NCBI GenBank assembly: GCA_031317595.1
Contig: JANCMB010000001.1
Location: 3,338,468-3,402,467, forward strand
Direction: 5' to 3'
Length of the DNA: 64,000 nucleotides
Source: Glutamicibacter sp. PS
GTDB lineage: Bacteria; Actinomycetota; Actinomycetes; Actinomycetales; Micrococcaceae
The position numbers and the translations under genes were made by a program. The notes below the pieces were generated by a model. The model searched no databases, was not told the DNA's origin, and saw only the letters and a list, made by a program, of their open reading frames with translations. This document shows positions 37,347 to 47,537 of the stretch, one piece after another. Position 1 is the stretch's first letter. Each line of letters begins with the position of its first letter.

Positions 37347-38741
37347 TCAGGAAATGATCGCGAAGAGGGTTCCGGCCACCGCGAAACCTACAACGGAAAG
37401 AATGGTTTCGAGCACCGTCCAGGTCTTCAAGGTGTCCTTGACGGACATGTTGAAGTACTTGGAGATGATCCAGAAACCACCGTCGTTGACGTGGCTTGCG
37501 ATGATCGAACCCGAGGAGATCGCAATGACGATCAGCGCTAGCTGCGGCTGGCTGAAGTCGCCGCTGGCTAGTGAGGGGGCCAGAATACCGCCGGTAGTTA
37601 CGATGGCCACGGTGGCTGAACCCTGCGCGATACGCATGCCACAGGAGATCACGTAGGCCGAGACGATCAGCGGTAGACCGGCCTGCGACAGGGAGTCGGC
37701 CACGGCCTTGCCCACACCGGTGGCGGCCAGCACCGCGCCGAAGAAGGCGCCGGCGCCCACGACGAGCAGGATCATACCGACCGGGCGTAGGGATTCGCCG
37801 GTGATCTTGGAGAGTTCATGGGAGTTGGTGCCGCGGCGTAGGCCCAGCAGCCACATCGAGATCAGCACGGCGATGGTCAGTGCAATGGCGGGGCTGCCCA
37901 AGAAGATCAGCAGGTCGCGCAGGGCATTCTCGGGCAGGAACACGTTGCCGAAGGTGGCCCCGAGGATCAAGACCATGGGCAGACCGATGGCCAGCAACAC
38001 CGTGCCGATATGCGGCTCTGGACGTTCGTCGTGCTCCTGAACCTGATGGATATGCTCTCCGGGAACCTCGACCTTCACGCGGGCGCCGATCCAGCGTCCC
38101 CAGACGATGCCGGAGGCCCACCAAGCGGGGATGCCGCAGGCCAGCCCCATCACGATGATCCAGCCCAAGGAAACGCCGAACAATCCGGCGGCGGCCACCG
38201 GACCTGGGTGTGGCGGCAGGAATGCGTGGGTAACCGACAGGCCGGCGACCAGCGGTAGCGCGTAGAGCGCCAGCGAGCGGCCGCCGCGGATGGCCGCGAC
38301 GTAGACCAGCGGGGCCAATACGAAGATGCCGATATCGAAGAAGACGGGGATGCCTAGCACGAAGCCGGTCACGCCCATGGCAACGGGTGTGCCCTTTTCG
38401 CCGAAGATCTTCACGAGCTTATTCAGTAGCACCTGTGCGCCGCCGGAATGCTCTAGGATCGCCCCGAGCACCGTGCCGAGGCCGATGATCAGGGTGATAT
38501 GCCCGAGGATCCCGGCGAAGCCCTTTTCGATCAGGGCATCGGAGGCGCCGGTTGGCGTGCCGACGAGGTCGGTGAGGGACACCCCGCCGGCTAGGGCCAC
38601 GAGCACACCCGTGGACACCAAGGCGATGAAGGGTTCGACCTTGAACTTGATGATGAGCGAGAGTAGGAGGGCGATGCCTACGGCCGCGAGGAGCAGCAGG
38701 CCCAGGGTGTCATGCCGGAGCCAGTCAAGGAAAGTGGCCAC
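37347..38741 (-). CDS. GntP-family gluconate-type permease
   Basis: 464 residues, about twelve to fourteen membrane spans. VEPFIALVSTGVLVALAGG, IIGLGTVLGAILEHSGGAQVL, FVLGIPVFFDIGIFVLAPLV and THAFLPPHPGPVAAAGLFGV are diagnostic of the Gnt family, which imports gluconate and related sugar acids with protons. It is the last gene of the minus-strand operon with KDPG aldolase, deacylase and PLP deaminase, so the cargo is likely an amino-sugar acid or its N-acyl form. The start codon at 38741 lies 16 bases after the aldolase stop. Confidence 0.93.
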   Translation of the reverse strand: MATFLDWLRHDTLGLLLLAAVGIALLLSLIIKFKVEPFIALVSTGVLVALAGGVSLTDLVGTPTGASDALIEKGFAGILGHITLIIGLGTVLGAILEHSGGAQVLLNKLVKIFGEKGTPVAMGVTGFVLGIPVFFDIGIFVLAPLVYVAAIRGGRSLALYALPLVAGLSVTHAFLPPHPGPVAAAGLFGVSLGWIIVMGLACGIPAWWASGIVWGRWIGARVKVEVPGEHIHQVQEHDERPEPHIGTVLLAIGLPMVLILGATFGNVFLPENALRDLLIFLGSPAIALTIAVLISMWLLGLRRGTNSHELSKITGESLRPVGMILLVVGAGAFFGAVLAATGVGKAVADSLSQAGLPLIVSAYVISCGMRIAQGSATVAIVTTGGILAPSLASGDFSQPQLALIVIAISSGSIIASHVNDGGFWIISKYFNMSVKDTLKTWTVLETILSVVGFAVAGTLFAIIS

Positions 38742-38757
38742 GTTGCCACCTCCGTTC

Positions 38758-39396
38758 TTAGTTATGAGGGACGAGTGATTGCGTGAAAATTTGAGCTAAG
38801 TTCGTGATCTCGTGCCAGTCGCCTTCGGCGACCAGCTTCGGTGGGACCACGGAGGTGCCGCAACAGACGGCCAGTGCACCGGCTGCCAAGAAGTCGGCGG
38901 CGTTTTTCTCGTTGATGCCGCCGGAAGGCAGTAGCTTGATACCCGGGTAGGGGCCTTGTAGGTCCTTCAGGTATCCGGGACCGACCTGTTTGGCCGGGAA
39001 GATTTTGACGATGTCGCTACCCAAATCGCGGGCCTGTGCCACCTCGGTGGGGGTCATCGCTCCCAGACTGAACGGGACACCGGCGGCCTGAGCGACCTGT
39101 GCGACCTCGGCACGGATGCCTGGTGTTACCAGGAACTGGGCGCCGGCCTCAATAGCTGAGTGTGCCTGCCGAGCGGTTAATACGGTTCCGACCCCGACCA
39201 TCACCTGATGTTCTGCGGCGGTCTCGACAACTCGTCGAATATGAGTCTCTACGTCGGGAGTGGTGAAGGTCAGTTCCAGGGTGCGAATGCCGCCGGCCGC
39301 CAGGGCGCCGGCCAATTGCGCGGCATCCGGGATATGGTCGGCACGAACGACCGCGAGGGTGCGATCCGCGGCGAGGAGCTGTTCTAGGGTGCTCAT
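38758..39396 (-). CDS. eda: KDPG/KHG aldolase
   Basis: 212 residues. Splits 2-keto-3-deoxy-6-phosphogluconate into pyruvate and glyceraldehyde 3-phosphate. Conserved parts are ALAAGGIRTLELTFTTPD with the catalytic glutamate, VGVGTVLTARQAHSAIEAGAQFLVTPG, DIVKIFPAKQVGPGYLKDLQGPYPG with the Schiff-base lysine in KIFPA, and LLPSGGINEKNAADFLAAGALAVCCGTSVV. The ATG overlaps the upstream deacylase stop by four bases. Together with the sugar kinase at 42533 it completes the lower part of a 2-keto-3-deoxygluconate route. Confidence 0.95.
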   Translation of the reverse strand: MSTLEQLLAADRTLAVVRADHIPDAAQLAGALAAGGIRTLELTFTTPDVETHIRRVVETAAEHQVMVGVGTVLTARQAHSAIEAGAQFLVTPGIRAEVAQVAQAAGVPFSLGAMTPTEVAQARDLGSDIVKIFPAKQVGPGYLKDLQGPYPGIKLLPSGGINEKNAADFLAAGALAVCCGTSVVPPKLVAEGDWHEITNLAQIFTQSLVPHN

Positions 39397-41024
39397 AGGG
39401 CTTGGGTTCCTTCCGGAGTGTGGCGTAGGGCGCGTCCGGCACGGGCGCCGGTAGGCCGCCCCTCGCTGATCGCTGGGACGCCGTTGACGTAGACCGCACG
39501 GATACCGGCGGCGGGCTGTTTTGGTTCGGCGAAGGTGGCGGTGGCCGCGATGTCCTGCGGGTCGAAGAGTACGAGATCGGCGGCATATCCTTCGCGGATT
39601 TCACCCCGGCGTACGAGTTTGAGCCGGGCGGCGGCCCGCCCGGTGAGGTGATGCACCGTTTCCTCGAGCGACATCACCCCAAGTTCGCGGCAGTACTTTC
39701 CCAGATATTCGGGAAAGGTGCCCCAGGCGCGCGGGTGAGGTTTGGCGCCGTGGAGCAAGCCGTCCGAGCCTCCGGTATGGACCCGGTGCGTCATAATGGT
39801 GCGGACATTCTCCTCGTGTCCGACATGCTGCAAAATACCGGTGCCGAGCCGATCTTCGAGCAGGATGCGGCGGAAGACCTCGAAGGGTTCTTGGGCCTCA
39901 TTTTCGGCGATCTGGGCAATGGTTTGTCCTACGTAGGAAGCGAGTTCCGGGTTCTGCACCGAGGAGATCTCGAGGGTTTCCCACTCCGCTGTGACACCGT
40001 GGCAACCGTCGGATCCGGTGACCTCCAGATGGTGGCGAATGCGGGCTGTGTCCTGCCGGTCGCGTAGGCGCGCAAGGGTTTCGTCGACCGAACCGGCGGA
40101 GGACCAGCTAGGTAGCACGGCCGATAGGGTAGTTGACCCCGGCAAGTAGGGGTAGGTATCGAGGGTGATATCCGCTCCGCGTTCCAGGGCATCGTCAATC
40201 AGCTCGAGCAGTTCGCCGGCGCGCCCCTTGTTCTCGGCGAAGTTCATCGTCGCATGGGCCAAATGCAGTGGACAGTTCGACTCGGTGGTCAGCTCGATCA
40301 TTTCCGCATAAGCCTGTAGCGCGCCCTTACCGTAGGATCGGTGATGCGGGGCGTAGAAACCGCCGAGTTCACCCACCGTGCGACAGAGTGCTCCCAATTC
40401 GGAGGTCGAGGCATACATCCCTGGCGTATACGTCAGGCCGCTGGACATGCCGACGGCACCTTCGGCCATGCCTCGAGCAATGACCTCGCGCATGGCCTCG
40501 ATCTCTTCCCCGCTGGCTTGTTCGTTACCGAAGCCCATCACCAGCGCGCGGACCGTGCCCTGCGGGATGAGATAGGCCGCGTTGGTGGCGATGCGTCCTC
40601 CCTTAGCATCCGGGCGATCGAGGCGGTCAAGGTACTCGGCGACCGACCGCCATGAGAAGTCGAAGTCCTGGGGATTGCCGTTCCACCCGGCAATCTTCTC
40701 GCGAATGATGGGGAGAATCTGGTCGCTGACCGGGGCATAGGAGATGCCGTCCTGCCCCAACACTTCGGTGGTGACACCCTGCGAGATCTTCGCATAATGT
40801 TCCGGCTCGGTCAGTAGATAGAGGTCCGAGTGGGCGTGCATGTCGATGAATCCCGGAGACAACACAAGGCCGGTGGCATCGATGAGTTGATCGGCAGGTT
40901 CGGTCAGAGATCCCGCCGCGGCAATGGTGGTGATCGTGCCCTCGGAGATCAGAACATCGGCGGTGTAGCGTTCGGCTCCGGTGCCATCGACGACGGTGGC
41001 ATTGCGAAAGATCGTGGTGCTCAT
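39393..41024 (-). CDS. N-acyl-D-amino-acid deacylase family (possible N-acyl-D-glucosaminate deacylase)
   Basis: 543 residues of the D-aminoacylase branch of the amidohydrolase superfamily. GFIDMHAHSDLYL gives the HxH metal motif (H63, H65) and D67; SNCPLHLAHATMNF and TLDTYPYLPGSTTLSAVLPSW follow; TGGSDGLLHGAKPHPRAWGTFPEYL holds the conserved catalytic region. The usual metal-binding Cys in GNCG is absent: the segment reads GVTTEVLGQDGISYAP (GQDG at 90-93). That points to a changed metal site or substrate. ATG 41024 follows GGAGGAGG. Context (PLP deaminase upstream, KDPG aldolase downstream, GntP) suggests removal of an acyl group from a D-2-amino acid such as N-acetyl-D-glucosaminate. Confidence 0.85.
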   Translation of the reverse strand: MSTTIFRNATVVDGTGAERYTADVLISEGTITTIAAAGSLTEPADQLIDATGLVLSPGFIDMHAHSDLYLLTEPEHYAKISQGVTTEVLGQDGISYAPVSDQILPIIREKIAGWNGNPQDFDFSWRSVAEYLDRLDRPDAKGGRIATNAAYLIPQGTVRALVMGFGNEQASGEEIEAMREVIARGMAEGAVGMSSGLTYTPGMYASTSELGALCRTVGELGGFYAPHHRSYGKGALQAYAEMIELTTESNCPLHLAHATMNFAENKGRAGELLELIDDALERGADITLDTYPYLPGSTTLSAVLPSWSSAGSVDETLARLRDRQDTARIRHHLEVTGSDGCHGVTAEWETLEISSVQNPELASYVGQTIAQIAENEAQEPFEVFRRILLEDRLGTGILQHVGHEENVRTIMTHRVHTGGSDGLLHGAKPHPRAWGTFPEYLGKYCRELGVMSLEETVHHLTGRAAARLKLVRRGEIREGYAADLVLFDPQDIAATATFAEPKQPAAGIRAVYVNGVPAISEGRPTGARAGRALRHTPEGTQAL

Positions 41025-41035
41025 AATGCCTCCTC

Positions 41036-42379
41036 CTAGAAATAGGTACGAACGAGATCGATAACGCGCGCGGTCTGCGGGGACTGAGCGGAGTCCAACA
41101 CCGGGATCAGCGACCATTTATCCAGCGCAGTACAGGGGTGGGAGAGACCGAGGCGAATCACGTCGCCCGGGTTGAGCTCGGCGTCCATGGCGTAACGCAG
41201 GAAAGCGTGCTGATCATTGACCGCGGTGATCTCACCTTCGGGTAGTTCGCTCAGCTCCTCGCCGAGCGCGTGCGCGTAGCCGTGAACCACCGGTAGGCCC
41301 TCGTCGAAGGGCAGGTCGCGTTTGCCGGCGTCCAGAATCGCCAGCCCGGGCTCGGGCTGAGAGACCACGCGGACCCAGGCGTGCATGCCGGCTCGGAAGG
41401 CGGTCTCGGCATCTGGGTTGGCGCGGCCCAACGGTGAGATGCCGCGGTAGAAACCGTCGTCGTGAATTAGGTAAGCGCCCGACCGGAGCAATACCCGCAC
41501 GGCGGGCTGCCCGGCGCCGGGTTCTTGGGTGTAGGTCGAGAGCTGCTCGACAACATTGTCGAAGTAGGCGCTACCGCCGGCGGTGAGCAAGGCGGTGTCG
41601 GTCTCGTAGAGCCCTTCCTCGAGGGCGGCGCGGTGTAGCGTGCCCACGCGGTCGAGGTAGTCGCGGATGATGGCCAGTGCACTGTCGTCGGTCGTGTGCG
41701 CCAACGAACCTTCGTAACCGCCAACGCCGACGAGCCGAAGTTGCTTGGCCGAGGCGATCGCGCGCGCGATTTCGAGGCCCTCGGCATCGGTTCGGGCACC
41801 GGTGCGTCCGCCGGAAGCGCCCAGTTCGGCGATCAGCGGCAGGGTAACGCCCGGGGTTTTTGCCAGTTCGGCACTGAGTAGCTCCACGGTACGCACCGAA
41901 TCGGCCCACGAGTAGATCTCGGCCCCGGCTATGGTTTCGGCGGCGAGATAGGCAATGGCCTGCGGGTCGGTGACGGCGTTGGCGATCATTATGCGTTGGA
42001 GCCCGAAGCCACGCGCGGTGCGCACCTGGTGTGCGTTGGCCAGCGTAATGCCCCAGGCGCCGTGCTCTAATTGCCACTGCCAGAGTGCCGGCGCCATGGT
42101 TGTCTTCCCATGTGGTGCGGCGAGTACCCCATGTTGCTGGCACCACTGGGCGAAACGTTCGAGGTTTCCACTCATGGCTTCGCGATCCAGCGTAAGAACC
42201 GGGGTCTGTAGTTGGTCGAGGCCAGGAGTCGCAGCGCGGAACTGGCGTACCGTTTGCCCGTGGAACTGCGCGGGGATGGCTTGATGCTGCCAACCGAGAA
42301 CCTCCTCGGCCAGCGCAGACACACGCGCGTCATCGATCAGGTGCGTTTCGTCCTGGCGGCTGGCCATGGAATCGTTCAT
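41036..42379 (-). CDS. PLP-dependent amino acid deaminase, D-serine dehydratase-like (fold type III)
   Basis: 447 residues. TPVLTLDREAMSGNLERF begins the alanine-racemase-like barrel, and K92 in LAAPHGKTTMAPALW is the PLP lysine. LIAELGASGGRTGARTDAE and GVGGYEGSLAH are family features. The C-terminal domain ends with IRLGLSHPCTALDKW, where the His-Pro-Cys pair would bind zinc as in D-serine dehydratase. Such enzymes remove water and ammonia from beta-hydroxy D-amino acids, so D-serine, D-threonine or D-glucosaminate are candidate substrates. First gene of the minus-strand operon; it is divergent from the sugar kinase, with an IclR-like site between. Confidence 0.88.
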   Translation of the reverse strand: MNDSMASRQDETHLIDDARVSALAEEVLGWQHQAIPAQFHGQTVRQFRAATPGLDQLQTPVLTLDREAMSGNLERFAQWCQQHGVLAAPHGKTTMAPALWQWQLEHGAWGITLANAHQVRTARGFGLQRIMIANAVTDPQAIAYLAAETIAGAEIYSWADSVRTVELLSAELAKTPGVTLPLIAELGASGGRTGARTDAEGLEIARAIASAKQLRLVGVGGYEGSLAHTTDDSALAIIRDYLDRVGTLHRAALEEGLYETDTALLTAGGSAYFDNVVEQLSTYTQEPGAGQPAVRVLLRSGAYLIHDDGFYRGISPLGRANPDAETAFRAGMHAWVRVVSQPEPGLAILDAGKRDLPFDEGLPVVHGYAHALGEELSELPEGEITAVNDQHAFLRYAMDAELNPGDVIRLGLSHPCTALDKWSLIPVLDSAQSPQTARVIDLVRTYF

Positions 42380-42391
42380 CAGAATCTCCTT

Positions 42392-42420
42392 GTTGCGTAT
42401 ATTGCAACTAGCGTTGCAAT
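42392..42420. promoter_or_regulatory. Likely IclR operator in the divergent promoter region
   Basis: ATTGCAAC (42401-42408) and GTTGCAAT (42413-42420) form a perfect inverted repeat with a four-base spacer, and an overlapping GTTGC/GCAAC pair starts at 42392. It lies 13-41 bases before the start codon of the deaminase operon and about 110 before the kinase. The IclR gene at 43540 is the obvious candidate to bind it. Confidence 0.6.
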
Positions 42421-42532
42421 CTTTGCTTGCATATGTCTAGCATTGAAATTGCGACCGCGTCAACGATTTGTTGTCCAGTGGGATGCAATGTGCGCGGCGC
42501 GAAATCATGCAACTTTGAAAGGGCGGGAACTC

Positions 42533-43543
42533 ATGAGCGATGTGGTGTGCCTCGGCGAGACCATGGCGATGGTGACCGCCAGCGAGGGAACTTCGCTTCG
42601 TCACGCCACGCAGATGAACCTGAGCATGGGTGGCGCCGAGTCAAATGTGGCCCTTGGCTTGGCGGCCATGGGCGTCGCAGTTCGCTGGATCTCACGAGTC
42701 GGCGCAGATCCCTTTGGGCACCGAATCTGTGCCGAGCTCGCCGAGGGTGGGGTAGATACCTCGTTGGTGGAGGTCGATTCGAAGCGTAATACCGGGCTGT
42801 ACGTCAAGGTACCCGCCACGAGTGAGCAGCCGGCATCGGTGATCTACTACCGTGCCGGCTCGGCGGCCAGTGCTATGAGCCCAGATTTCCTCCGTGCGCC
42901 GGAGCGAACGGCCGCCCTGAGTGAGGCACGCTTGATTCATATCTCGGGTATTACCGCAGGCCTGTCGGATGACTGCGCGCAAATGCTGCGTGAACTCCTA
43001 CAGGCCCCGCGGCGCGCCAGGATATGCTTCGACGTCAACTGGCGTGCTGCACTGTGGGGCGAGCGCGATAAGGCTCTTTTACGTGAACTGGCGAATTTAG
43101 CCGATATCGTCATGGTGGGCTTAGATGAAGCAGTTCCGGCGCTCGGGGCGCATAGCGAGGAAGAGATTCGCCAGATCCTCGACCGACCTAGCTGCATTGT
43201 AGTGAAAAATGAAGATGCCAGCGCGGTCGCACTCACCACCGCCGGGCGCTACGAGGTCCCCTCATTGCAGGTCGAGGTCGTGGAACCAGTGGGAGCTGGC
43301 GATTCCTTTGCCGCCGGATACCTCAGTGGGGTACTCGCCGGTCTCGACGAACGTGCTGCCCTCCGCCGTGGACATTTGGCGGCAGCCTGCACGCTGACCG
43401 TACGGGCCGATCGCGGAAAGCTCCCGGCTCCAGAAATTCTCGATCGTCTGCTCAGCGTGAGCGATACTCAGTGGACTGCGATTACCGTTAGTACCCGGGG
43501 CATTGTCCTGAACGGCACGCCGATTACGGAGGTACACATATGA
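42533..43543 (+). CDS. PfkB-family sugar kinase, probably 2-keto-3-deoxygluconate kinase
   Basis: 336 residues. VVCLGETMAMVTASEG at the start, NLSMGGAESNVALGLAAMGV (substrate lid), and VVEPVGAGDSFAAGYLSGVLAG with the catalytic aspartate are PfkB ribokinase motifs. The MAMVT start and GGAESNVA pattern are common in 2-keto-3-deoxygluconate kinases. With the KDPG aldolase encoded divergently, phosphorylation of 2-keto-3-deoxygluconate is the best guess. ATG 42533 follows GGGCGGGA; the frame is open further upstream but runs into the opposite gene. The stop overlaps the IclR start. Confidence 0.88.
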   Translation: MSDVVCLGETMAMVTASEGTSLRHATQMNLSMGGAESNVALGLAAMGVAVRWISRVGADPFGHRICAELAEGGVDTSLVEVDSKRNTGLYVKVPATSEQPASVIYYRAGSAASAMSPDFLRAPERTAALSEARLIHISGITAGLSDDCAQMLRELLQAPRRARICFDVNWRAALWGERDKALLRELANLADIVMVGLDEAVPALGAHSEEEIRQILDRPSCIVVKNEDASAVALTTAGRYEVPSLQVEVVEPVGAGDSFAAGYLSGVLAGLDERAALRRGHLAAACTLTVRADRGKLPAPEILDRLLSVSDTQWTAITVSTRGIVLNGTPITEVHI

Positions 43544-44301
43544 GCGCAACGCTGAAACGCGCCCTCGGGCTACTCGATCTCATCTCCCAAGAACCTAAGG
43601 GGCTCGATGAAATCGCCGCGCTCGCCGAGGTCCATAAGACCACCATCATGCGTCAGCTACACACCCTCGAAGAATGCCGCTTCGTGGTGCGCAACGACCG
43701 GGGGCAGTATCAACTCGGCTCAAAGCTCTTCGAGCTGTCGTCGTTGGCTTTGGATCAGCGTAATCTGGTGGCCGTCGCCCATCCTCATCTGATCGCGCTT
43801 AACCGGCTCACCGGACACACCGTGCACCTCGCGGCCTTCGAAGGGCCCGAGGTCGTGTACATCGACAAACTCGAATCGTTGCACTCGGTGCGCATGTATT
43901 CGCGTATCGGTTTGACCGCCGCGCTCCATGCGACCGGAGTGGCCAAGGTGCTACTCGCAGACCTCTCGGTGGAGCGTCGGCGCCATATCGCCGAATCCAT
44001 TGACTACCATCCCTACACCCGCAACACCATCTCCACTGCGCAGGATTTCCTGCAGCGTCTGGACCTCGTGGCCGCGCGCGGATACGACTACGACGATCGG
44101 GAGCATGAGGAATTCGTGCACTGTGTCGCCGTACCCGTCCGCGAGGCTTCGGGGCAGGTGGTAGCCGCTATTTCTTGTTCGGTTCCGGTGGTTCTGCGTA
44201 ATCAGGCGGAACTGTTGGCACTATTGCCGGACATTCAGAACTGTGCCGAGGCTATTTCCAAGGACCTCGGCTGGACCCCTACCGAAAGGAATGCTCAATG
44301 A
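43540..44301 (+). CDS. IclR-family transcriptional regulator
   Basis: 253 residues. The winged helix has LKRALGLLDLISQEPKGLDEIAALAEVHKTTIMRQLHTLEECRFV. The ligand domain includes THTVHLAAFEGPEVVYIDKLES (read GHTVHLA), SRIGLTAALHATGVAKVLLA and HEEFVHCVAVPVREASGQVVAAISCSVP, all typical of IclR proteins that sense small acids. ATG 43540 overlaps the kinase stop (ATGA) and its own stop overlaps RidA. It likely represses or activates both divergent operons through the repeat at 42392-42420, with a pathway intermediate such as 2-keto-3-deoxygluconate as a plausible ligand. Confidence 0.93.
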   Translation: MSATLKRALGLLDLISQEPKGLDEIAALAEVHKTTIMRQLHTLEECRFVVRNDRGQYQLGSKLFELSSLALDQRNLVAVAHPHLIALNRLTGHTVHLAAFEGPEVVYIDKLESLHSVRMYSRIGLTAALHATGVAKVLLADLSVERRRHIAESIDYHPYTRNTISTAQDFLQRLDLVAARGYDYDDREHEEFVHCVAVPVREASGQVVAAISCSVPVVLRNQAELLALLPDIQNCAEAISKDLGWTPTERNAQ

Positions 44302-44699
44302 GCAAGCAGATCGTTCGCACCGACAACGCCCCGGCCCCGGCCCACACCTTTAGCCAGGGGATCAAGAAGGGTCCGATCCTTCAGGTCTCCGGCCAGGGCC
44401 CCATGGACCCGGTCACCAATCAGTACATCGCCGAAGGTGACGTGCGCGAGCAGACCCGTCAGACCCTGGAGAACGTCAAGGCCATCCTGGAGGCCGGCGG
44501 CTCCTCCGTCGAGGATGTGGTGATGTTCCGTGTGTACCTGACCAAGCGCGAAGACTTCGCCGCTATGAACGAGGTCTACGGCGAGTTCATCGAAGCCAAT
44601 GTGCCCAGCGGTCAGCTACCGTGCCGCACCACCGTGTTTGTTGACCTGCCACATGAGGTCATGCTGGTGGAAATCGACGCCCAGGCAGTCGTCGCCTAA
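44298..44699 (+). CDS. ridA: RidA-family enamine/imine deaminase
   Basis: 133 residues. ISKGPILQVSGQGP-like N-terminus (GIKKGPILQVSGQGPMDP), EQTRQTLENVKAILEAGGSSVEDVVMFRVYLTKREDF and the C-terminal PCRTTVFVDLPHEVMLVEIDAQAV are typical, with the substrate-binding arginine in CRTTV. RidA hydrolyses reactive 2-aminoacrylate-like enamines made by PLP dehydratases. Its placement with the PLP deaminase of the divergent operon fits removal of the enamine/imine intermediate. ATGA overlap with the IclR gene; a terminator follows 45 bases after the stop. Confidence 0.93.
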   Translation: MSKQIVRTDNAPAPAHTFSQGIKKGPILQVSGQGPMDPVTNQYIAEGDVREQTRQTLENVKAILEAGGSSVEDVVMFRVYLTKREDFAAMNEVYGEFIEANVPSGQLPCRTTVFVDLPHEVMLVEIDAQAVVA

Positions 44700-44816: not shown

Positions 44817-45905
44817 CTAGTTAGCGATGAGCGTGTGCCATGGGCGCTGACCGGCCTCGGCGGGCGTGCCGTCAAGTACCTTGGCGCTGCGTGAGCTTGG
44901 GTCGAGGATGACCGTGGCTAGGCTCGCCCAACGCTGCCCCATGGAGAGGTTCATATCCGGTACGCAGGTCACCGGTGGCTCACCCGAGCCGGTCACCAGT
45001 TGCTCGAAGAGTTCATCGACGGAGTCTGGCGCCCCATTGGCTAGGCGCGCGGCGAGGAAGTCGAAACGCTGACCGGAATCGGGCTGATAGAGCCAGCTCT
45101 TCTCCTCGGCCTTAGGCGTTTCGGTGAGGAAGTGGTTGGTGCGCAGGTGCGTGCCTGGCTGCAGCGGTGGCACCTCGAATACGCCGCGCGGGGTGATTTC
45201 GAGGAGTGCCGAACCCTGTCGGTCCAGTAGTGCGAAGGAGCCGGAGGAAGCGATCGGCGCGCTACGCACCACATCGATGGCCTCGGCCACCGACCCGGCA
45301 TTCTGCAGCACGTAGGCGGACAACACATGCATGGGGATTCCACCGACCGCGTCTTCGCGGTGCCCCAGAATGTTGAAGTGCAGTCCCAGGCCGGCGCTGT
45401 TGATGCCGATCTTGCCCAGAATGCCATGTTCGGTAATACCCACCATGTGGTGACGGCCGCCGATGACCTGTTGCGTGTGCCAGTGTTCGGCCAATTCGAC
45501 GTGCCAGTCCCAGGTCTGGACCCCGAAGGTCCCCGGCGGGGTCTCGCGCACGATCGTGGAACATTCTCCCGGTGCGATGTTGGCACTACGGGCCAGGATT
45601 TCGGTGCGTGCGTTGAGGGCGGCCACCTGCCACGGGGACAAATTTGCCTCGGTGGCAGTGCCAGTAATCTCTTCGGCGAGCTCGGGGGCGAAATTCGAAA
45701 TGTCCTCTAACGCGCGTTCGGCGTCGGAGCGCACCTGCTGCTGGGTTAGACCACCGAGGTCGAAGAATTTCGTGTAGATCGCCAGCGCGCCATGTAGCTG
45801 GTCGCCAAGCTGTGCCGCACGCTGTTGGCCGCGTGCGGTGGGGTTGCCGGCATCGATGCGTACATGTGGGCGCAGGGTGGGGCGTGGAGCGGGGAAATCG
45901 GTCAT
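44817..45905 (-). CDS. C45-family acyltransferase/hydrolase (isopenicillin N acyltransferase fold)
   Basis: 362 residues. NARTEILARSANIAPGECSTIV is the usual region around the autocatalytic cysteine of C45 Ntn-hydrolases (C115 in GECSTI), and QTWDWHVELAEH, GILGKIGINSAGLGLHFNIL and LRTNHFLTE are further family marks. The precursor cleaves itself before the Cys to form two chains. Family members hydrolyse or exchange acyl groups on amides. It follows the amidohydrolase by nine bases, so the two form one operon. No signal peptide. Confidence 0.85.
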   Translation of the reverse strand: MTDFPAPRPTLRPHVRIDAGNPTARGQQRAAQLGDQLHGALAIYTKFFDLGGLTQQQVRSDAERALEDISNFAPELAEEITGTATEANLSPWQVAALNARTEILARSANIAPGECSTIVRETPPGTFGVQTWDWHVELAEHWHTQQVIGGRHHMVGITEHGILGKIGINSAGLGLHFNILGHREDAVGGIPMHVLSAYVLQNAGSVAEAIDVVRSAPIASSGSFALLDRQGSALLEITPRGVFEVPPLQPGTHLRTNHFLTETPKAEEKSWLYQPDSGQRFDFLAARLANGAPDSVDELFEQLVTGSGEPPVTCVPDMNLSMGQRWASLATVILDPSSRSAKVLDGTPAEAGQRPWHTLIAN

Positions 45906-45914
45906 GGGTATTCC

Positions 45915-47537
45915 TTAGCGCAGTGCGTCGGCGGTGACGCGGTCGTGTTCGATGAGGTGACCGTCGACGACGGTGGCCACTACGGGATTGCTGGCCTGAG
46001 CACTCGGGTCGAGGCGCATCGGGTCGGCGGCAAAAATACTCAGGTCGGCGCGGGCGCCGACGGCGATCCTGCCTCCGGCCGGCGCACCGGCGGCGAGGGC
46101 AGGAATCCGCGTCATCGCCGTGTAGGACTCATCCGAGGTGAGCGCTTGTTCGACGTGGAGGGTGGCGGCCTGCGGGTCTTCGACCGGGCGGCGCAGCTGT
46201 GCGTCGGCCAACGCGATACGCGGATCGGCCACCCCGATGGGCCAGTCGGAGCCCAGGGCCAGTGGCGCCTTGGCGCGTAGCAGGTCGCGGGTGCGCCAAC
46301 CGTGGGATGCACGGTCACGACCTAGGCGAATGGACCAGTTGTCGCTGCCATCCGCGCTGGTTAGGCGCGTCCCGTGAACCGGTTGCACGCTAGCGATGAC
46401 TCCCAACTCGGCGAAGCGAGGCAGCAGCTCATCGCCGATGGATTCCAGATGCTCAATGCGGTGGGCACCGCCGCGAGCCGGTCCGGCCGCTGCTATCGCA
46501 TCGAGCGCATAGGCCACCGCGGCGTCTCCGATGGCGTGCGTGGCCGTGGGGATGCCACGGGAGGTGAAGAATTCGATTGCTTCACGGTAGGCCTGCGGAT
46601 TGCGCCAGAGACTGTCGGTGTTTTCCCCATAGCAGTCCGGGTGCGCGAACCACGCCGAACCATTATCGGCGGTGCCATCGAGCATGAATTTCACCCCGGC
46701 CACCTGCCACCGATGGCCACCAAGCTCTTGCTGCGCTACGGCCCGAGCCCAGACTTCTGGCCCGGAATCGGCGGGAATCAGTGGAGAGCAACGAACCTTC
46801 AGGGGCAGCAGATTGCGCTCATCCAGATAACTGAAGACCGCATGGGACGGGTCAGCGAAATCCAGTGCGTGTATCCCGGTAAGGCCGGCACGGGCCATGT
46901 GGCGCAGTTCCTGCAAAACAAAGTCGGCGGCCTGTTCGGTGGGTAGCGTCGGGTAGTGCTCCATCACCAGATCCATGGCCTGCAGCTCCACTATGTAGCC
47001 GTTGGGAGTGCCCTGCTCGTCAGTGTGAATCCGTGAGGCGTCGGCGAAGCGTTCGCGGCCTGTGATGCCCAACTGTTCGATGACGGCGGGGCTTACCACC
47101 AGGGCATGCGCATCGGAGGTCATGTAACTGATCTTGGCCCCGGGGAAGTGCTCGTCGAATACCCGGCCGTCCACGTGCCCGCTAAAAAGATTGACGTCTA
47201 GGTTGAACCCGGTAATCCACTGATCGGCACCCAGTGCCGCGAGGCGCTCGCCGGTGGCGGTCATCAGGGCTTCGAGTGTGTGGATTTCGGCGAGGTCGAG
47301 GGAGGTCCCGCGCTCGATGGAACCCCAGACGGGGTGCGTGTGAATATCCACGAGCCCGGGCAGAATGACGCCATCGAGCTCGATGATTCGAGTGTCTCTG
47401 GTCGAATACCGCTGCACAAGCTCTGGTCCGCCGAGGGCCAAGATGTGCTCGGCGGAAATGGCCAGTGTGGTGGCCGTGCTCACTGGTTCTCCAGGGTTGT
47501 GGATGCCCCGAGCGGAAATGATCAGGTCTGCGCCCAT
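45915..47537 (-). CDS. Amidohydrolase of the YtcJ/N-substituted formamide deformylase type
   Basis: 540 residues. Metal-site motifs of the amidohydrolase barrel are present: LPGLVDIHTHPVWGS, VKFMLDGTADNGSAW with the likely carboxylated lysine, IPTATHAIGDAAV, HRIEHLE and LALGSDWPIG. NPVVATVVDGHLI closes the small beta-sandwich domain. The length and motif order fit YtcJ-like proteins that cleave N-acyl or N-formyl groups. It is first in the operon with the C45 hydrolase and divergent from the TetR gene, with a palindromic site in between. Confidence 0.9.
   Translation of the reverse strand: MGADLIISARGIHNPGEPVSTATTLAISAEHILALGGPELVQRYSTRDTRIIELDGVILPGLVDIHTHPVWGSIERGTSLDLAEIHTLEALMTATGERLAALGADQWITGFNLDVNLFSGHVDGRVFDEHFPGAKISYMTSDAHALVVSPAVIEQLGITGRERFADASRIHTDEQGTPNGYIVELQAMDLVMEHYPTLPTEQAADFVLQELRHMARAGLTGIHALDFADPSHAVFSYLDERNLLPLKVRCSPLIPADSGPEVWARAVAQQELGGHRWQVAGVKFMLDGTADNGSAWFAHPDCYGENTDSLWRNPQAYREAIEFFTSRGIPTATHAIGDAAVAYALDAIAAAGPARGGAHRIEHLESIGDELLPRFAELGVIASVQPVHGTRLTSADGSDNWSIRLGRDRASHGWRTRDLLRAKAPLALGSDWPIGVADPRIALADAQLRRPVEDPQAATLHVEQALTSDESYTAMTRIPALAAGAPAGGRIAVGARADLSIFAADPMRLDPSAQASNPVVATVVDGHLIEHDRVTADALR

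Follow-up and report, generated by a model that had tools for sequence, protein, structure and literature searches.

The gene cluster described here lies at positions 37,347 to 44,699 of a 64,000-nucleotide window (the whole stretch of DNA analysed, in whose positions all coordinates are given) from contig JANCMB010000001.1 of Glutamicibacter sp. PS, and it probably encodes a catabolic route for an N-acylated amino sugar acid. It consists of seven intact and tightly coupled open reading frames, organized in two divergent arms (Table 1). In transcription order, the minus arm encodes a pyridoxal phosphate (PLP) deaminase, a deacylase, a 2-keto-3-deoxy-6-phosphogluconate (KDPG) aldolase, and a GntP permease, and the plus arm encodes a PfkB kinase, an IclR regulator, and a RidA protein. 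Stop and start codons overlap by 4 bases at the deacylase/aldolase, kinase/IclR, and IclR/RidA junctions, a sign of coupled translation, and the divergent promoter between the arms spans 153 bp from the deaminase gene to the kinase ATG. An earlier sequence-only reading of this DNA had named the same seven genes, families, and places, all of which are borne out by the open frames and the family profile matches.

Table 1. Features of the cluster, in window positions
Feature	Position	Strand	Details
GntP-family permease (gluconate:H+ symporter type)	37347..38741	-	464 aa, GTG start; PF02447 417 bits
KDPG/KHG (4-hydroxy-2-ketoglutarate) aldolase	38758..39396	-	212 aa; TIGR01182 203 bits (cut-off 156), PF01081
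GQDG-type amidohydrolase, D-aminoacylase-like deacylase	39393..41024	-	543 aa, ATG at 41024; PF07969 147 bits
D-serine-dehydratase-like fold-type III PLP enzyme	41036..42379	-	447 aa; PF14031 67 bits (cut-off 22)
Dyad TTGCGTATATTGCAA	42393..42407	.	candidate operator of the IclR regulator
Second dyad TTGCAACTAGCGTTGCAA	42402..42419	.	overlaps the first dyad, divergent promoter
PfkB kinase, KDG-kinase-like (KDG, 2-keto-3-deoxygluconate)	42533..43543	+	336 aa, ATG at 42533; PF00294 172 bits
IclR-family regulator	43540..44301	+	PF01614 152 bits
RidA family protein	44298..44699	+	133 aa; TIGR00004 110.1 bits (cut-off 106.25)

The permease scores nearer to gluconate than to D-serine carriers, with 373.9 bits for TIGR00791 (cut-off 292.75); the D-serine carrier DsdX was ruled out by its score of 202 of 618 bits. 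The aldolase holds the motifs VKIFPA (residue 130) and PSGGI (residue 157), presumably its catalytic motifs. The best solved relative of the deacylase is the D-aminoacylase 1m7j (AfDam), and that of the PLP enzyme is 3gwq, titled 'D-serine deaminase' (2e-59). The motifs PHGK (at 89) and SHPC (at 413) of the PLP enzyme, presumably the PLP lysine and the HxC metal motif, fit fold-type III D-serine dehydratase-like enzymes. An assignment of this protein as the 3-hydroxy-D-aspartate aldolase BhcC was rejected, since it reaches 108 of 690 bits with NF045642, below the equivalog cut-off. The kinase carries the motifs GGAESN, YYR, DVNWR, and GAGDSF and is closest among solved proteins to the KDG kinase 1v19 from Thermus (4e-38); its best model is the KDG kinase equivalog NF041332 (163.6 of 440 bits, under the cut-off). 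For the regulator the best model is PRK15090 KdgR, likewise under its equivalog cut-off (167 of 275 bits).

The combination of a KDG-kinase-like kinase, a KdgR-like regulator, a gluconate-type carrier, and a KDPG aldolase suggests that a sugar acid is turned into KDG. Since a pair of D-amino-acid enzymes would act upstream of the KDG enzymes, an N-acyl-2-amino-2-deoxy-aldonate is the natural reading. The cluster thus probably serves to catabolise an N-acylated 2-amino-2-deoxy-aldonic acid via KDG, and N-acetyl-D-glucosaminate (GlcNAc1A) is its most likely substrate. In the predicted scheme, GntP would import the aldonate by proton symport, and the GQDG amidohydrolase, with a metal putatively held by Asp, His, and His, would remove the acyl group. 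The PLP enzyme would then dehydrate the free D-amino aldonate at C2-C3, and the resulting enamine would be hydrolysed to KDG and ammonia, with RidA speeding this step or detoxifying the enamine/imine. The PfkB kinase would convert KDG into KDPG, which the aldolase would cleave into pyruvate and glyceraldehyde 3-phosphate. With the aldolase present in the window, the route on paper spans from import to these two products. The IclR protein would govern both arms via the dyads in the 153-bp promoter, the inducer being probably KDG or the aldonate.

This order of steps, already put forward by the sequence-only reading, is supported by the gene content, by the conservation of most of the genes, and by the characterised ong pathway, here taken from the available part of its description (PMC9537276). 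According to that part, the ong cluster of Pseudoalteromonas prydzensis ACAM 620 catabolises GlcNAc1A in steps proven by mutants and enzyme assays: OngB deacetylates GlcNAc1A, OngC deaminates the resulting D-glucosaminate (GlcN1A) to KDG, and KdgK phosphorylates KDG; RidA is essential, its role being unknown (PMC9537276).

The cluster recurs across actinobacteria. Species genomes were scanned with an alignment of nine deacylases, and the best 80 of at least 490 stretches were kept. These 80 named loci were picked by the deacylase alone, so that neighbouring genes played no role in the choice. All 80 record titles are actinobacterial, the nearest being Glutamicibacter uratoxydans (79%), and members of Streptomyces, Nocardia, Amycolatopsis, and many related groups carry the cluster. 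Within 8 kb, and by blastp at E 1e-10 to the window proteins (counts made without a random-locus control), the PLP enzyme is found at 80, the IclR regulator at 73, RidA at 72, and the kinase at 71 of the 80; 13 of these loci are shorter than 17.5 kb, which can only depress the counts. In Tsukamurella tyrosinosolvens, all seven genes appear in an order identical to that of the window. At E 1e-40, the PLP enzyme is present in 26 of 396 genomes across the phylum, 36 of 149 within the family, and 2 of 8 within the same genus as the window; the deacylase matches 31 of the 149 family genomes, 16 of which hold class A, that is, the window type by the authors' own cut of E < 1e-150. This patchy distribution of both enzymes marks the cluster as an accessory trait. 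Its recurrence exceeds chance, as the partners recur at loci chosen by the deacylase alone and the PLP enzyme is otherwise rare. One observation on gene integrity is that the deacylase of genome G144 (locus L058, 10002-11749) is split over two overlapping frames, which reflects either a broken frame or a misassembly.

Sixty loci were also drawn by the PLP enzyme. Their deacylases belong to class A at 28 loci, to a second GQDG type about 35-37% identical to the window deacylase (class B) at 8, and to a Cys type at 2; the remaining 22 show none. The eight class-B loci (L061-L066, L077, and L078, from other genera and beside the PLP enzyme) include RidA at 6, the kinase at 5, and the KDPG aldolase at 3, a pairing that favours the aldonate route. 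The 60 loci also bear on a rival explanation, the scavenging of ordinary N-acyl-D-amino acids or D-serine, in which N-acyl-D-serine or -threonine would end as pyruvate or 2-oxobutyrate. The 22 loci without a deacylase favour it, as do the nearest solved relatives of the deacylase, which are D-aminoacylases, and the title of 3gwq; OngC, too, acts on D-serine and D-threonine in the available part of PMC9537276. Such scavenging nevertheless appears improbable, given a kinase at 71 and a GntP carrier at 54 of the 80 named loci, a KDG-type kinase at five of the eight class-B loci, and a regulator whose best model is KdgR. The corollary that the kinase, aldolase, and GntP serve gluconate or KDG and are adjacent by accident is to be judged equally improbable.

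The deacylase site was compared, for the specificity and binding residues named in the accessible part of the PpOngB structure paper (PMC12017989), with that of PpOngB and with those of five further OngB-type enzymes taken from named records (two of Pseudoalteromonas, one each of Vibrio, Klebsiella, and Cupriavidus). The PpOngB row is a printed fragment ending at residue 294, and its Gln298 is taken from the accessible text of the same paper (PMC12017989). PpOngB keeps Ser292, and the five others keep both Ser292 and Gln298. The window deacylase has Asp for Cys97, Tyr for Glu226, Thr for Lys254, Gly for Ser290, and Thr for Ser292, with no Gln in the Gln298 loop; the loop differs in length and its register is uncertain, so that the claim is limited to the absence of Gln downstream. 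The Asp in place of the metal Cys is encoded by bases 40749-40751 and has number 93 when the protein is read with 544 residues. The changes are conserved among the named loci: Asp for Cys97, Tyr for Glu226, and Thr for Ser292 occur at 80/80, Thr for Lys254 at 79/80 (Val once), and a loop Gln at 0/80.

Other residues of the site are kept. His68, His70, His222, His252, and Tyr285 of OngB are present in the window deacylase together with the GSDG and HPR motifs, the HxH pair (H64 and H66) is invariant in 39 rows, and the catalytic Asp after strand 8 (D422) is found at all 80 named loci. At each of these loci, the Cys/His/His metal site of subtype V appears with Asp for Cys and both His retained, and the putative Asp/His/His site is not among the amidohydrolase subtypes named in the accessible portions of the literature consulted, which do not treat its chemistry either. 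The class-B deacylases (9 of 9 rows) share Asp for Cys and have His for Lys254 and Tyr for Glu226, both as aligned, and Ser or Thr at 292. With the D-aminoacylases 1m7j (AfDam) and 3gip (BbDam) the window protein has in common the fold family, HxH, the two metal His, and the GSDG and HPR motifs, and it differs from them in the Asp for the metal Cys, the Thr for the carboxylate Lys, and the Tyr for Glu226. Two non-actinobacterial proteins annotated as D-aminoacylases, from Natrononativus (haloarchaeal; L123, 6986-8584) and Rhodovastum (L124, 6995-8590), have Asp for Cys and keep the Lys and Glu, so the Asp also occurs outside this pathway. The Natrononativus gene lies near a GH20 gene and genes for Gfo/Idh/MocA oxidoreductases.

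Since the carboxylate Lys and other OngB contacts are replaced, the substrate carboxylate must be bound in another way. This could mean that the same logic serves another N-acyl aldonate, such as N-acetyl-D-galactosaminate, a differently acylated compound, or the 1,5-lactone. Another substrate would explain the lost carboxylate and hydroxyl contacts, namely Lys254 (replaced by Thr in class A and, as aligned, by His in class B), Glu226 (replaced by Tyr in both), and the absent Gln298, and an ong-type cluster of Klebsiella annotated with a 2-keto-3-deoxygalactonate (KDGal) kinase and a 2-keto-3-deoxy-6-phosphogalactonate (KDPGal) aldolase indicates that the sugar can vary. On the other hand, the PSGGI motif of the window aldolase is presumably nearer to KDPG- than to KDPGal-type aldolases, GntP carriers take aldonates, and GlcNAc1A is, to our knowledge, the only such compound with a large natural source. 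A different aldonate is for these reasons considered unlikely, and GlcNAc1A is retained as the preferred substrate.

The trees of both enzymes are quick ones without bootstrap, with long branches flagged; that of the deacylase is unrooted and its groups were named after viewing. In it, the actinobacterial rows (39; Shimodaira-Hasegawa-like approximate likelihood ratio test, SH-aLRT, 96) stand apart from OngB and the D-aminoacylases (10 rows, 99). A descent of the cluster from that of ong, in which deacylase and deaminase would go back, together with OngB and OngC, to one ancestral pathway and have diverged in actinobacteria, would agree with the common enzyme superfamilies and step order. Its prediction of one clade for OngB and the actinobacterial deacylases was tested with a nested Pantoea protein counted as part of the OngB group. 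The clade was rejected with seven other rows outside (approximately unbiased test, p-AU 3.6e-6) and with five (p 0.004). It was unrejected when AfDam, BbDam, and a Comamonadaceae protein were the sole rows outside (p-AU 0.61), a grouping that leaves room for descent in a test that is near empty because the tree has no outgroup; more weight is given to the other two tests. A first test (p 2e-8) was discounted, as the Pantoea protein had wrongly been held outside.

In the deaminase tree, computed without the OngC of P. prydzensis itself, four ong-type cluster deaminases group with those of Cupriavidus and 3gwq (SH-aLRT 99), and the window enzyme falls elsewhere, which also speaks against descent. 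The same holds for a search of 396 actinobacterial genomes with the OngB fragment, where the best of the matches listed reached 40% over its length and one partial match 41%, no listed match being higher. On the clade tests, the deacylase probably has an ancestry of its own, although this hinges on the outgroups used. Descent from ong seems very improbable, and separate assembly would be the better reading, if not a settled one.

The dyads of the divergent promoter may serve as the operator for the IclR protein that the cluster encodes. The pattern TTGCRNNNNNYGCAA (TTGCR-N5-YGCAA) was written after inspecting some 20 of the loci. Among 99 loci, which comprise the window and 98 relatives (L059 and L148 being the same record twice), 95 have it no more than 400 bp from the 5' end of the deaminase gene. 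Two of the exceptions, L076 and L188, contain a match but their deaminase frame is over-long; the other two, L176 and L182, lack a match. The 1.67 Mb of these loci contain 105 matches, only 10 of them elsewhere than in the deaminase 5' region, and the expectation per whole locus is 0.026 by base shuffle or 0.045 by a first-order Markov model. At the genome scale (12 genomes searched), the matches listed for the window genome include 17 sites of the pattern versus 18 of the reversed pattern, hence no excess. The 15-mer shared with the other cluster genome of the same genus adjoins a thioredoxin-reductase-like gene (by eye) and unrelated regulators. An excess over the reversed control is seen among the matches listed for genomes G114 (28 vs 5) and G144 (28 vs 18), both of which also carry a gene for an AA10 lytic polysaccharide monooxygenase (LPMO).

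LPMOs release amino-aldonates, and the sequence-only reading had suggested looking for the cluster beside LPMOs, chitinases, or aldonate-forming oxidases. Within the family, AA10 and GH18 are more frequent in class-A genomes. AA10 is present in 4 of 16 genomes with class A versus 2 of 133 without (Fisher p 0.0012), GH18 over the cut-off in 7 of 16 versus 13 of 133 (p 0.0015), and strong GH18 in 3 of 16 versus 3 of 133 (p 0.017), all uncorrected for ancestry. This co-occurrence gives no more than a hint of a link to chitin. In the window genome, no berberine bridge enzyme (BBE) oxidase was found and searches detected no AA10, GH18, or GH20; a search for GH19 gave no match for its own control. 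With no substrate source seen in its genome, the organism would live as a scavenger. An AA10 LPMO gene lies 17-39 kb from the deaminase gene in G097, G114, and G144 (loci L113-L115 and L117), three genomes that belong to a single genus.

Several of these results weigh against GlcNAc1A catabolism by the cluster: the changed OngB residues of the deacylase, the scores of kinase and regulator under every NCBIfam equivalog cut-off, the incomplete recurrence of GntP (54/80) and of the KDPG aldolase (18/80 within 8 kb) at the named loci, the lack of detected AA10, GH18, and GH20 in the window genome, and the 12 of 16 class-A genomes without AA10, with three of the four carriers from one genus. In the form given by the sequence-only reading, the N-acyl-D-glucosaminate-like substrate is not supported, because the deacylase is without the OngB specificity residues, carboxylate Lys, and metal Cys and none of those three chitin-related families was detected in the window genome.

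The borders proposed for the cluster look right, as five labelled flanking genes hardly recur at 60 relative loci: C45, NCS1, and TetR labels occur at 0/60, MFS at 3/60 (all class-B deacylase loci), and YtcJ at 1/60, with 24% identity, the serine hydrolase of the left flank being outside the label set. Adjoining the cluster, at 44817-47537, are genes for a C45 autoproteolytic hydrolase and a YtcJ-like amidohydrolase.

The absence of a described actinobacterial version, already remarked on by the sequence-only reading, agrees with searches of the open-licence literature, which turned up no such pathway for GlcNAc1A or glucosaminate in these bacteria; this is weak evidence of novelty. The available part of PMC9537276 reports the characterised catabolic route from Gammaproteobacteria and one betaproteobacterium, and in the accessible text of an Aeromonas study a GlcNAc1A route was sought and could not be confirmed (PMC11653859). 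Slightly less than even weight can be given to the proposal that actinobacteria assembled a complete oxidised-amino-sugar pathway independently of marine Gammaproteobacteria, from the same superfamilies but with an Asp/His/His deacylase and a different substrate grip. If so, non-chitinolytic cells would live on aldonic amino sugars released by the LPMOs or oxidases of others, and the cluster predicts that actinobacteria form a second amino-aldonate sink, whose enzymes and operator are open to test.

Compared with the ong cluster, the window cluster has in common a D-aminoacylase-fold deacylase, a fold-type III PLP deaminase, a KDG kinase and RidA (both by family and nearest solved relative, the kinase below equivalog cut-offs), and the order of steps, with deacylation and deamination before phosphorylation. 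It differs in having an IclR instead of an RpiR regulator, a GntP instead of an SSS carrier, a deacylase whose active site departs from that of OngB and has the metal Cys replaced by Asp, and a deaminase outside the OngC group, and no GH20, TonB receptor, or LPMO is seen with it. Judged by these differences in deacylase, deaminase clade, regulator, and permease, it is not an ong cluster. The KDPG aldolase gene (kdgA) is an addition in the ong clusters of Vibrio, Klebsiella, and Serratia described in the available part of PMC9537276. A plasmid record of Klebsiella pneumoniae (L119, 7574-14838) encodes an OngB-type deacylase, PLP deaminase, RidA, and SSS carrier along with the annotated KDGal kinase and KDPGal aldolase, so the downstream enzymes of ong-type clusters vary. 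The ong-like cluster of Cupriavidus campinensis (L110/L121) shares GntP, RidA, PLP enzyme, kinase, and KDPG aldolase with the window (blastp to the window proteins) and differs in its OngB-type deacylase, with Cys97, Lys254, Ser292, and Gln298, and in a PLP enzyme that groups with 3gwq. Finally, the D-glucosaminate-6-phosphate route, with its DGL ammonia-lyase, also leads from an amino aldonate to a keto-deoxy acid; in the accessible part of its description it uses a phosphorylated substrate (PMC9529869), whereas the window pathway is expected to act on the free acid.

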